In this document: piece after piece, positions 35,813 through 39,138 of the stretch
How the letters are laid out: each line of letters opens with the position of its first letter
Numbering within the stretch: position 1 is the stretch's first letter
Assembly (NCBI GenBank): GCA_020161575.1
Contig: JAIUNR010000005.1
Location: forward strand, 124,001 to 188,000
Length of the DNA stretch: 64,000 bases
DNA from: Pseudomonadota bacterium
Lineage (GTDB): Bacteria > Pseudomonadota > Alphaproteobacteria > Rhizobiales > Beijerinckiaceae
Reading direction: 5' to 3'
Position numbers and translations under genes: made by a program
The notes under the pieces: generated by a model
Told to the model about the DNA's origin: nothing
The model's input: only the letters and a program-made list of their open reading frames with translations
Databases searched by the model: none

Positions 35813-36148
35813 CTAGAAACACACGCTGTCGCGCTTGAGCTGCCGATTCGCATCGCGCGATATCCGCATCAAACAGGTGCGCACTTCACCCGAACGCTGG
35901 ACGATGACGACGAAATCCGTGCCCTTGTCGGAAGTGCGCTCCATGCCCTTCACCTCGAACCCCTGCCGGACCAGCATGTCGAGGCTGACGACCGGCGGGT
36001 TCGGCGCCGGAACGCCAGGCGCCGGAACACCAGGCGAAGGAGCGCCCGGCGGCGCCTGGCTCGGCGGCGGGCGAATGAACGGGTCCGGCGTCTGGGCGTG
36101 AGCGCCGGACATCATCACAAAGAGAACAGAGAGGGCGAGCCCCCTCAC
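35813..36148 (-). CDS. Small secreted proline-rich protein between nuoD and nuoE
   Basis: This 111-residue protein starts at a GTG (36148) that overlaps the nuoD stop (GTGA), so it is translationally coupled to nuoD. Residues 1-19 form a signal peptide ending in GAHAQ. A Pro/Ala/Gly repeat region follows ([20 protein letters not shown]), then a small domain with [20 protein letters not shown] and a terminal pair of cysteines ([14 protein letters not shown]). I do not recognise a family. It is probably periplasmic. The 201 bp between its stop and nuoE contain no clear gene, though the frame stays open for 38 codons after the TAG. Confidence 0.7.
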
Positions 36149-37338
36149 CGATCCACTTCCCCGAACACGATATCGAGCGAACCGAGAATCGCCGAGACAT
36201 CGGCGAGCATGTAGCCCTTGCACAGGAAATCCATCGCCGAGAGATGGGCGAAGCCCGGTGCGCGAAGCTTGCAGCGATAGGGCTTGTTGGTGCCATCCGC
36301 CACGAGATAGACGCCGAACTCGCCCTTGGGCGCTTCCACCGCGGCATAAACCTCGCCGGCGGGCACATGGTACCCCTCGGTATAGAGCTTGAAATGGTGG
36401 ATCAGCGCTTCCATCGAACGCTTCATCTCGCCGCGCTTCGGCGGCACGATCTTGCCGTCCCTGGCCGAGATCGGCGTCTTGCCGTCCGGCCCGCGCAATT
36501 TGGCGATGCATTGCTTCATGATGCGCACGGATTGGCGCATCTCCTCGACGCGGATGCAATATCGGTCGAAATTGTCGCCGTTCCTGCCGATCGGAATGTC
36601 GAATTCAAGCTCGCTGTAGCATTCATAGGGCATGGAGCGACGAAGATCCCAGGCCGCGCCCGAGCCGCGCACCATCACGCCCGAAAAACCCCAGGCCCAG
36701 GCATCGTCGAGATTGACAATGCCGATATCGACATTGCGCTGCTTGAAGATGCGGTTATCGGTCAGCAGCCCTTCGAGATCGTCGACCAGCTTCAGGAACG
36801 GATCGCAGAACGCCTCGATATCGTCGATGAGGTCCGAGGGCAGGTCCTGATGCACGCCGCCCGGTCGCACATAGGCGGCATGGAGGCGGGCGCCGGAAGC
36901 GCGCTCATAGAAGATCATGAGCTTCTCGCGCTCCTCGAAGCCCCAGAGCGGCGGGGTGAGCGCGCCGACATCGAGCGCCTGCGTCGTGATGTTGAGGAGG
37001 TGGTTGAGGATGCGCCCGATCTCGGAATAGAGCACGCGGATGAGCTGGCCACGCTTGGGCACCGTGATGCCCAGCAGCTTCTCGACCGCCAGCGCATAGG
37101 CATGCTCCTGGTTCATCGGCGCGACGTAATCGAGCCGGTCGAAATAGGGCAAAGCCTGCAGATAGGTCTTGTGCTCGATCAGCTTCTCGGTGCCGCGATG
37201 GAGAAGCCCGATATGCGGATCGGTGCGGGTGACGATCTCGCCGTCGAGTTCGAGCACGAGGCGCAAAACGCCATGCGCCGCAGGATGCTGCGGCCCGAAA
37301 TTGATCGTGAAATTGCGCTGGTTCGGTTGTTCGGTCAT
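36145..37338 (-). CDS. nuoD: NADH-quinone oxidoreductase subunit D
   Basis: This 397-residue 49-kDa-type subunit is related to the large subunit of NiFe hydrogenases and forms the quinone pocket with NuoB. Conserved parts are [20 protein letters not shown] (quinone-binding histidine in the loop), [32 protein letters not shown], and the C-terminal FGEVDR. It is a stand-alone D, not fused to C as in E. coli. Its ribosome site (AAGG) lies just downstream of the left repeat of the inserted four-helix-bundle element. Confidence 0.97.
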
Positions 37339-37351
37339 GGCGCTTCGCCTT

Positions 37352-37383
37352 GCGAATAGTGAGTAGCGAATGGCGAATAGGGA
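37352..37383 (+). repeat. Left 32-nt inverted repeat of the four-helix-bundle element
   Basis: It begins GCGAATAG and ends GGCGAATAGGGA and contains three copies of GCGAAT. It lies 13 bp upstream of the nuoD start codon. Confidence 0.7.
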
Positions 37384-37390
37384 AAGAGTT

Positions 37391-37798
37391 TCATTTTTCC
37401 CCCTTCGAGCGAGTAAGCAACGCGCGAATCAAGGAACGGATCATCCGGCCAAGACTATCGCAGCGATCTAGTGTTTCGTTTTCCGTGGTCGCAGGTAGAA
37501 AACCGACCCTTGCCGCAAGAATGAGGTGTGTTTCCAGCTCCTTGAGCGAACCCTGCGCAACGCGCAGGAACTGGATGAACACAGCGCTTGTCTCCCGCCC
37601 GTGGCCTTCGGCGATGTTGGCCGGAATGGACACCGCAGAACGTCTGATCTGGGAGACCAGCCCATACATTTCCTCCTTCGGAAATGAAGCGGTTACCCGA
37701 TAAACCTGCTCAGCCAGAACCATTGCTTCCTGCCATACCCTGAGATCGCGATAGGATTCGATCCGCTGGTCCGCCAATCCCGGCTCCCTATTCGCCAC
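37391..37798 (-). CDS. Four-helix-bundle protein (23S rRNA intervening-sequence / S23 type)
   Basis: This 135-residue protein has clear family marks: [38 protein letters not shown], the EGHGRE turn, and [20 protein letters not shown]. It starts at GTG 37798, which lies inside the right inverted repeat and is directly preceded by an in-frame TGA. Relatives are found in intervening sequences of 23S rRNA genes, as free-standing genes, and as the Avd accessory protein of diversity-generating retroelements. Its cellular role is not established. No reverse transcriptase or rRNA gene is nearby. It must be co-transcribed with nuoC and nuoD. Confidence 0.9.
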
Positions 37799-37816
37799 TC
37801 ACCATTCGCTATTCGC
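37785..37816 (-). repeat. Right 32-nt inverted repeat of the four-helix-bundle element
   Basis: On the minus strand it begins GCGAATAG and ends GGCGAATAGGGA, like the left copy. It supplies the GTG start and the first codons (GTG GCG AAT AGG) of the four-helix-bundle gene and ends 1 bp before the nuoC stop codon. Confidence 0.7.
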
Positions 37817-37817
37817 C

Positions 37818-38417
37818 CTACTTCGCCTTCTCGTCGCCCGGCAGCACGTAATCCGTGCCTTCCCAAGGCGAGAGGAAATCGAAATTACGGAATTCCTGGT
37901 TGAGCTTCACCGGCTCGTAGACGACGCGCTTTTCCTGATCGTCGTAACGCACCTCGACAAACCCGGTGAGCGGGAAATCCTTGCGGAGCGGATGCCCTTG
38001 GAAGCCATAATCGGTCAGCAGGCGGCGCAGATCGGGATGGCCGGTAAAGGCGACGCCGTACATGTCGTAGGCCTCGCGCTCGTACCAGTTGGCGCCGGGA
38101 AACACATCCACCGCCGAGGGAACCGGCGTCGCCTCGTCCACCTGAACTTTCACGCGGATGCGGCGTACATGACGCGGCGACATCAGGTGATAGACGATAT
38201 CGAAGCGCTTCTCACGCTCGGGATAATCCGCGCCGCAAATGTCGATGAAGCTGAGGAAGGCGCAATCGGGATTGTCGCGCAGATAGGTCAGGACCTCGAC
38301 AATCGCCTCGCTCTCGGCATGGAGCGTCAGCTCGCCATTGGCGATGACATGGCCGGTGACCTTGCCGGGGAGCGCCTTTTCGACATGCGCCGCGAGAATT
38401 TGCAGTGTTTCGGACAT
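37818..38417 (-). CDS. nuoC: NADH-quinone oxidoreductase subunit C
   Basis: This 199-residue 30-kDa-type subunit sits in the connecting module of complex I. Conserved parts are [40 protein letters not shown] (the family signature) and [20 protein letters not shown]. It is a separate gene, as usual in alphaproteobacteria. Its stop codon abuts the right repeat of the inserted element. Confidence 0.97.
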
Positions 38418-38433
38418 CGCGTCCCTCTCCGCT

Positions 38434-38519
38434 CGTCATGCCCGCCCTCGGGGCGGGTATCCATGACTTCACTACCTGCCTTCAAGGCGTGGATGGCCGG
38501 GCCGGACCCAGCCATGACG
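38434..38519. repeat. Intergenic imperfect palindrome between nuoB and nuoC
   Basis: The ends CGTCATG (38434-38440) and CATGACG (38513-38519) are perfect complements. Inside are GCCCGCCCTCGGGGCGGG with TATCCATGA, and GCGTGGATGGCCGGGCCGG. This is the dispersed 'CGTCATGGCCGG...CCATCCACG' type of alphaproteobacterial intergenic repeat. It lies within the 142-bp gap between nuoC and nuoB and may form hairpins in the mRNA. Confidence 0.65.
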
Positions 38520-38559
38520 GCCGGAACCCTGTGACGAACGGCTCGCCACCCACAAAAAC

Positions 38560-39138
38560 CTACCGTTCGATCGTGCCGGTGCGGCGGATCTTCTTCTGAA
38601 GCAGCAGCACGCCGTAAAGCAGGGCCTCCGCCGTCGGCGGGCAGCCCGGCACATAGATGTCCACCGGCACCACGCGGTCGCAGCCGCGCACCACCGAGTA
38701 GCTGTAATGGTAATAGCCGCCGCCATTGGCGCAGGAGCCCATGGAAATCACGTAGCGCGGCTCCGGCATCTGGTCGTAGACCTTGCGGAGCGCGGGCGCC
38801 ATCTTGTTGGTGAGCGTGCCGGCGACGATCATCACGTCCGACTGGCGGGGCGAGCCGCGCGGCGCGAAGCCGAAGCGCTCGACATCGTAGCGCGGCATCG
38901 AGACCTGGATCATCTCGACCGCGCAACAGGCGAGGCCGAAGGTCATCCACATCAGCGAGCCGGTGCGCGCCCAGGTGATGAGATCATCGACCGTGGTGGT
39001 GAGGAAGCCGCGATCGGCGAGTTCGTTGTTGATCTCGACGAAGAAAGGATCCGTCGCGCCGACAGGCTTGCCGGTATTGGGATCAAGAATGCCCTTGGGG
39101 GCGGGCGCGACAAGCGTGTTGGAATGAAGCGTATTCAT
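38560..39138 (-). CDS. nuoB: NADH-quinone oxidoreductase subunit B
   Basis: This 192-residue PSST-type subunit holds cluster N2, the last iron-sulfur centre before quinone. Ligands are in [25 protein letters not shown] and [18 protein letters not shown] 39138 (MNTLHSNTL) is chosen because GGAG lies 7 bp upstream; ATG 39153 (MAEKTMNT), overlapping the nuoA stop, is possible. The N-terminal tail of about 40 residues is usual for the group. Confidence 0.96.

Follow-up and report, generated by a model that had tools for sequence, protein, structure and literature searches.

The stretch of 64,000 nucleotides analyzed here (the window) carries an arm-bounded unit at the junction of nuoC and nuoD, where it makes up 465 bp of the 479-bp spacer (Table 1). 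As the initial annotation had described, the unit fits the junction exactly: it begins 1 nt past the nuoC stop codon and finishes 13 nt ahead of the nuoD ATG, and the neighboring genes match the NCBIfam models of NADH-quinone oxidoreductase subunits C (E = 5.3e-104) and D (E = 2.6e-185). The inverted 32-nt arms are spaced by 401 nt and match at 27 of 32 positions (84% complementary); reading of the letters confirmed the earlier statement that all five mismatches are transitions. Each arm is composed of about four tandem heptamers of the (GCGAATR)n type (GCGAATR/GTGAGTR), the two sets being in opposite orientation and the last heptamer merging into GGGA. Written as heptamers, the arm reads GCGAATA GTGAGTA GCGAATG GCGAATA GGGA and is thus no unique 32-mer. 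Its first 29 nt had one match in the window at three or fewer mismatches and none in 100 shuffles. The array scores of 8.0 and 9.0 (threshold, 7.0) likewise place inverted, matching heptamers on the two sides of the enclosed gene. Furthermore, a 9-bp direct repeat, AAGGCGAAG, lies beside both ends of the unit and could have kept the nuoD ribosome site intact.

Table 1. Features of the S23 unit and its neighbors in the window
Feature	Position	Strand	Basis or remark
Whole unit, outer array end to outer array end	37352..37816	-	465 bp; arm pairing and array-to-array homology of three related units
Upstream array (S23 sense), GCGAATA GCGAATG GTGAGTG GCGAATA GGGA, facing inward	37785..37816	-	Letters, arm pairing
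Downstream array, same heptamer type inverted	37352..37383	+	Arm pairing
S23/four-helix-bundle gene, 128 aa, likely TTG start at 37777	37391..37777	-	PF05635, TIGR02436, model
nuoC, host gene upstream	37818..38417	-	Stop codon 37820-37818; NCBIfam
nuoD, host gene downstream	36145..37338	-	NCBIfam
AAGGCGAAG, possible nuoD ribosome site, direct copy of nuoC end	37343..37351	-	Candidate target duplication
AAGGCGAAG copy, nuoC 3' end	37821..37829	-	Candidate target duplication

The enclosed gene belongs to the S23 family (PF05635, E = 1.2e-39; TIGR02436, E = 1.1e-37). It is, as claimed before, the sole open reading frame (ORF) in the unit with a family match, and a transposase gene is absent from the unit. 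The gene had been thought to start at a GTG within the repeat. A GTG at 37798 does lie inside the arm after an in-frame TGA, and the ORF can be extended to it; nonetheless, judging from the starts of homologues, translation likely begins at the TTG just outside the arm, after the array-closing AGGGAG. Positions 36000 to 39000 gave no Rfam match at the gathering score, and the unit lies at the nuoC–nuoD junction, not inside a 23S rRNA gene. We assign the window element to the S23 intervening-sequence kind, here placed within an operon and not in rRNA.

We know of no function for S23 proteins, which are widespread. A model of the window protein, built from a 52-row alignment, has four helices and a mean pLDDT of 96.2. 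Using Foldseek, the model was matched to the Xanthomonas S23 structure 2gsc with TM scores of 0.81 to 0.86 (2gsc_B, 40% identity, TM 0.85) and to the Avd 4dwl chains with TM scores of 0.74 to 0.76 (E = 0.012 to 0.067; best, 4dwl_D, TM 0.76, E = 0.012). The matches to Avd 4dwl and the Avd-like chains of a retroelement complex (TM 0.71 to 0.76, E = 0.012 to 0.33) are less sure than those to 2gsc, and the Avd families NF033474 and bAvd PF22296 gave weak sequence matches below their curated cut-offs. The S23 protein is Avd-fold and probably pentameric. Residues W15, P33, E36, Q43, S50, N54, A56, E57, G58, R61, G76, E80, and T83 were invariant in 52 diverse S23 proteins; several are polar and map to helices 2 and 3, where they might form a binding or active surface. 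The median dN/dS was 0.067 (0.025 to 0.228) over 54 pairs, with three further pairs giving 0 and standing outside the median; these 57 pairs, which are >75% identical and not independent, come from 25 hand-chosen loci. The underlying alignments reach upstream into the array, which gives "internal stop" marks, and stop-bearing codons were skipped. Judged by these codon comparisons, the S23 gene is under purifying selection.

Of 17 genomes in the genus (among them G003 and G009, 83% and 78% complete), only that of the window matched PF05635 in profile searches, with a single copy; in wider samples, PF05635 was present in 22 of 199 genomes from the family and 43 of 397 from the order. Since there is one S23 copy in the window genome, recent copying is not seen there. 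Fifteen of the 17 genomes yielded nuoC, giving 15 readable nuoC–nuoD junctions: six are empty (10 to 16 bp), eight hold other inserts (334 to 978 bp), and one, that of the window, holds the S23 unit. By genome comparison, the unit is a newcomer in the genus, present in the window species alone among the genomes seen. A search of plasmids for S23 returned 43 records, mostly from cyanobacteria and all at <60% identity.

The junction itself looks like a general acceptor site in the genus (window positions 37339 to 37817, with other inserts at L033, L036, L039, L040, L041, L044, L045, and L046). By eye, several of the eight other inserts contain small ORFs, and those of L039, L044, and L046 are alike. 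That this other cargo is the same kind of unit was rejected: none of 11 non-S23 nuoC–nuoD inserts of >100 bp, eight from the genus and three from a second genus, had heptamer arrays.

To survey S23 flanks more widely, we pooled 134 loci: 48 from the genome search, 6 from plasmids, and 80 obtained by scanning named genomes, the last being the best 80 of 581 confirmed loci (from at least 592 pattern matches) and no random sample; L068 to L074 (second copies, fragments, or loci with no tblastn match) were left out. In the 100-nt flanks, self-identity peaked at lags of 7, 14, and 21, reaching 0.395 and 0.408 at lag 7 versus 0.23 to 0.30 at the other lags up to 13; within the S23 gene and further upstream, no lag-7 peak was found. 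An array was called significant when its best lag-7 segment exceeded the 99th percentile of single-base shuffles. Such arrays were present upstream of 102 loci, downstream of 101, and on both sides of 89, compared with 0 to 16 loci per side at control lags of 5, 6, 8, 9, and 10 under the same threshold. Of the 48 genome-search loci, 40 had arrays on both sides, as did 4 of the 6 loci from plasmids and 45 of the 80 from the scan (the best 80 of 581), the last group spanning 14 named phyla. The remaining 45 of the 134 loci were without a significant array on one or both sides, and the single archaeal locus had one upstream only. The 89 loci with both arrays yielded 46 distinct consensus heptamers, which share a loose A-G-N-[GC]-A-N-T pattern (3.42 bits versus 2.2 [SD, 0.19; largest, 2.62] in 50 phase-permuted sets). 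Arm similarity was 0.846 within one element but 0.577 between elements.

The heptamer sequence varies with the S23 protein. S23 identity correlated with heptamer similarity across the 89 loci (Mantel r = 0.473; SD, 0.061; largest of 1,000 permutations, 0.204) and among the 41 nuoC–nuoD loci only (r = 0.318; largest permuted, 0.213), whereas nuoD identity in the latter correlated neither with the heptamers (r = −0.089) nor with S23 (0.00); these Mantel values may be inflated by relatedness among rows. As far as such comparisons of sequence tell, the heptamers follow the S23 protein and not the host nuoD, and gene and ends travel together. It is mainly this co-variation, to which shared ancestry of whole units contributes, that leads us to infer that S23 recognizes the heptamers. 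The element is, in our estimation, probably a small mobile unit whose S23 protein would recognize its heptamer ends and which an enzyme encoded elsewhere would move. The unit consists of an S23 (Avd-fold) gene flanked by two arrays of a lineage-specific heptamer, both facing inward. A ring of S23 would bind the cognate heptamers at both ends, either as DNA or as an RNA stem formed by the arms, and hold the ends together, and host enzymes would then copy or move the unit so held. Units that lose the S23 gene could persist as short heptamer palindromes.

The terminal inverted repeats, the short gene-less derivatives, and the Avd fold would also suit a non-autonomous element that carries S23 as a passenger and depends on a resident reverse transcriptase or transposase acting in trans. 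However, neither reverse transcriptase (RVT_1) nor Y1 transposase (Y1_Tnp, PF01797) had a match in the window genome, and among 33 S23 genomes examined (of 62 found in the family and order searches), RVT_1 was not found in 22 and Y1_Tnp was not found in 26; as an obligatory partner, either enzyme was rejected for most of these 33 genomes. Moreover, a passenger is not expected to co-vary with the ends. Target duplication, the check proposed in the initial annotation, gave the 9-bp candidate at the window site and nothing general: across the 89 loci, the flanks shared a longest direct repeat of 4.51 on average versus 4.22 when permuted (SD, 0.10; largest of 200, 4.53), a slight excess with no fixed duplication. 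We consider a passenger role for S23 unlikely. With respect to gene-less derivatives, L247 and L262, two short forms, retain the right end together with bases aligning to the end of the S23 gene (L249 aligns less clearly), and, from these alignments, they might have arisen as internal deletions of S23 units. The earlier label of a non-autonomous unit may or may not apply to the S23 units, whose gene co-varies with the ends; short S23-less units are better candidates for non-autonomous forms.

Fifty of the 134 S23 loci lie at nuoC–nuoD, comprising 37 of 48 from the genome search, 0 of 6 from plasmids, and 13 of 80 from the scan (the best 80 of 581). Their hosts are Hyphomicrobiales, or unnamed ranks in the order of the window genome, plus one Parvularculaceae assembly. 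In 40 of 42 nuoC–nuoD elements with both arrays, the left array begins −22 to +14 nt from the end of the nuoC stop codon, which overlaps the array in 18 of the 42 and abuts it in 4. The S23 tree has low resolution, with 69 of 130 inner branches open on 127 columns, so we relied on distances and one congeneric pair. Over 49 loci, distances correlated at r = 0.03 for S23 and nuoD (permutation SD, 0.10), 0.25 for S23 and nuoC, and 0.53 for nuoC and nuoD; despite the overall lack of correlation, close pairs agree in S23 and nuoD. In the congeneric pair L196/L090 and L197/L101, both at nuoC–nuoD, NuoD is 99.2% identical, whereas S23 is 64.7% identical and the heptamers are of the GGCAATG type in the former and the GCGAATA type in the latter. 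These comparisons indicate that the unit arrives independently and repeatedly at the nuoC stop codon; it also sits at other junctions, mostly between genes that run in one direction.

Recurrent occupation of one site could also come about if the unit were immobile and donor nuoC-S23-nuoD segments recombined through the nuo flanks, which are conserved; the S23–nuoC correlation and the other inserts at 8 of 15 genus junctions agree with this. Yet the flanks of the L196 and L197 junctions, taken as 60 nt per side, are 95% identical between these two loci and only 68 to 85% identical to the loci with the nearest S23. Exchange through nuo flanks, furthermore, cannot give array-bounded homology at an unrelated junction, and L229, at nuoC–nuoD, is 72 to 74% identical to L119, L237, and L254, the three units aligned from such a junction, from array to array and no further. 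All four are hosted by a Mesorhizobium-like genus, and the S23 frame of L229 is apparently broken. Flank recombination is, on this evidence, distinctly unlikely. The presence of the unit in 1 of 17 genus genomes, the empty junctions, the homology ending at the arrays, and the incongruence of S23 and nuoD support the earlier proposal of a mobile unit bounded by its repeats.

The second junction, whose neighbors we take to encode a circularly permuted ATP-grasp protein and an alpha-E protein, was followed in the 30 nearest of 141 matching genomes, including that of L119, with S23 presence judged from insert lengths and sequence matches. S23 was present in 10 genomes, at least one heptamer array in 29, and both arrays in 23. 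Because all 10 S23 units have both arrays, 13 of the 20 S23-less occupants have both as well, and the S23-less occupants represent several heptamer classes. Thus, occupant and heptamer class change among close relatives while the neighbors stay.

The orientation of the units was evaluated outside nuoC–nuoD. Among 39 loci with GC of <0.56, 33 had both neighbors called, and the unit was sense between two co-directional genes in 26, antisense in 3, and between opposite-direction neighbors in 4; one of the three antisense cases, L067, is in rRNA, where the ORFs called are no genes. The sense bias was weaker in the 45 high-GC loci, of which 24 were sense and 2 antisense, while 14 were mixed and 5 incomplete; the neighbors of all these loci were called by a crude ORF rule that is less reliable at high GC. 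Departing from the sense bias, the S23 unit of a Nostoc plasmid (L103) lies antisense between two ribonucleotide reductase subunit genes. A type I-D CRISPR operon on an Anabaena plasmid (L104) includes an S23 gene with heptamer arrays, placed between cas6 and cas4. At L097, the S23 gene is directly upstream of what, from its translation, is presumably nuoL, a possible second entry into the complex I operon.

Read inward, the arms stop all three frames on both sides in 28 of 89 units versus 3 of 89 read outward, and permuting positions within the heptamer gave an inward expectation of 11.3 (SD, 2.8; largest, 20 in 300); in the other 61 units, all-frame stops on both sides were absent. As 7 is not a multiple of 3, tandem stop-bearing heptamers put stops in every frame, and the inward stops suit a unit able to close off neatly the reading frame it invades. 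With its stop codons, an inward array could take over from the stop of the invaded gene, leaving the following gene with a ribosome site, so that insertion would be nearly harmless; given its sense placement inside operons, the unit would need no promoter. The view that it is tolerated in an essential operon fits these observations.

The arms might alternatively act as an RNA device, a stem kept for regulation at which the mRNA is processed into nuoABC and nuoD-N transcripts. In the predicted fold of RNA across the junction, the arms are paired (z = −2.40; 2 of 100 shuffles equally low), the units show a sense bias, and RNase III is reported to excise the Coxiella 23S insert (PMC4990558). However, in a separate sample of 51 nuoC–nuoD junctions (15 from the genus and 36 from the Mesorhizobium-like genus), the S23 unit was missing at 14 and 30 junctions, respectively, and such rapid turnover suits a selfish unit better; a conserved regulatory role is improbable. 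For the mobile unit, too, the arm stem in mRNA may be cut by RNase III, as in 23S rRNA.

A further possibility is that slippage at permissive junctions produced the heptamers as microsatellites of the host and that S23 falls into them by chance. Array lengths do vary, slippage probably changes heptamer copy number, and S23-less arrays exist in the window genome, where (GCGAATR)3-like arrays had 24 overlapping matches at two or fewer mismatches, 5 of them in the unit, and the reversed pattern had 0; among the other 16 genus genomes, they occurred in quantity only in G004 (13 matches, no S23), with one match in each of two more. Against this, the arrays are inverted and matched between arms, and their sequence follows S23. 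Arrays were found at 0 of the 44 junctions without S23 in the sample of 51, whereas both were found at 6 of the 7 with S23, and a long-standing microsatellite at nuoC–nuoD was rejected on the basis of the 44. We regard a chance association of S23 with microsatellites as highly improbable. By eye, a heptamer palindrome occupies what looks like the same, apparently convergent junction in G004 and the window genome, two species of the genus (L188, 1490 to 1605; L020, 1490 to 1595). At L009 (1360 to 1570, around G000:C1:157003-157123), a run of 17 perfect heptamers is accompanied by a degenerate inverted partner but not by S23 and possibly represents a gene-less remnant.

That the gene descended vertically from a Hyphomicrobiales ancestor as a normal member of the operon, with frequent loss, is scarcely credible: the same junction is used in 50 of 134 loci and the nuoC–nuoD label clusters on the S23 tree (6 changes versus about 40 when shuffled), but S23 and nuoD distances are uncorrelated, congeners differ in S23 and heptamers, and the 16 other genus genomes show no PF05635, for which reasons vertical inheritance of the junction occupant was rejected. 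Because the position is not kept by descent, the suggestion that the unit is domesticated is unsupported. The pattern that the initial annotation had set against mobility, with all relatives sharing the gene and repeats nowhere else, is not what these genomes present.

S23 units also occur inside 23S rRNA, as determined with Rfam for the three tested (L067, L073, and L106); L067, L070, and L073 are copies of the same insert within one genome. Both ends of L067 are made up of heptamers (GTGACCA, GTTATCA, and GTGAACA among them), and L106 has a significant array downstream (10.5) and one below threshold upstream (5.5). According to PMC4990558, Coxiella, Leptospira, and Brucella have 23S intervening sequences with an S23 ORF, it is unclear how intervening sequences in rRNA arose, and the Coxiella insert, whose S23 is probably not made in vivo, has tandem GACAGAT heptamers ahead of the ORF. 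The rRNA and operon inserts thus look like one kind of unit. The window unit resembles the 23S intervening sequences in its PF05635-type gene between complementary, stem-capable ends and in its tandem heptamers (reported for Coxiella, and seen on both sides of L067 and one side of L106) but differs in lying between protein genes of an operon and in having inverted arrays whose sequence follows S23. We found no description of S23 with heptamer arrays outside rRNA, or of repeated arrival at nuoC–nuoD, in the open-access literature.

Other known systems share single traits with these units. The Avd protein of diversity-generating retroelements is a four-helix bundle of the same fold (4dwl_D), but the window unit has no reverse transcriptase and its genome has no RVT_1 match. 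Miniature inverted-repeat elements (MITEs) and insertion sequences (IS) resemble the window unit in terminal inverted repeats and small size, and related units include short gene-less forms; S23 units differ in being without a transposase, in end arrays that are degenerate and vary between elements, and in showing no general target duplication. REP/REPIN palindromes are partnered by the RAYT (Y1) transposase. Like S23 units, they are intergenic palindromes with solo forms, whereas S23 units are heptamer periodic and Y1_Tnp is unmatched in the window genome and in 26 of 33 S23 genomes. STRR, the short heptanucleotide repeats of cyanobacteria, and the TAACTGA repeats of Beggiatoaceae are 7-nt, tandem, and intergenic, as are the heptamers of S23 units, but are described as direct repeats. 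The TAACTGA repeats are direct 7-nt repeats with one inverted set in that genome (PMC4679880, as far as the source was accessible); reversed and rotated, TAACTGA becomes AGTTATC, partly like the AGN[GC]ANT pattern. They may be relatives of the S23 heptamers, although the wording of the accessible part of PMC4679880 makes no mention of S23, four-helix proteins, or intervening sequences.

Comparison across loci supports a broader view, which we hold to be about evenly balanced between true and false: bacteria may harbor a cross-phylum class of mobile units in which an S23/Avd-fold protein and its cognate inverted heptamers constitute the whole element, with no known transposase. Such units would home to operon junctions, the 23S rRNA form would be the intervening sequence, and orphan palindromes would be the gene-less remains. 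The co-variation of S23 and heptamers gives the S23 protein a direct, testable partner, links the 23S inserts with those in protein operons, and suggests how DNA might be moved without a recognizable transposase.
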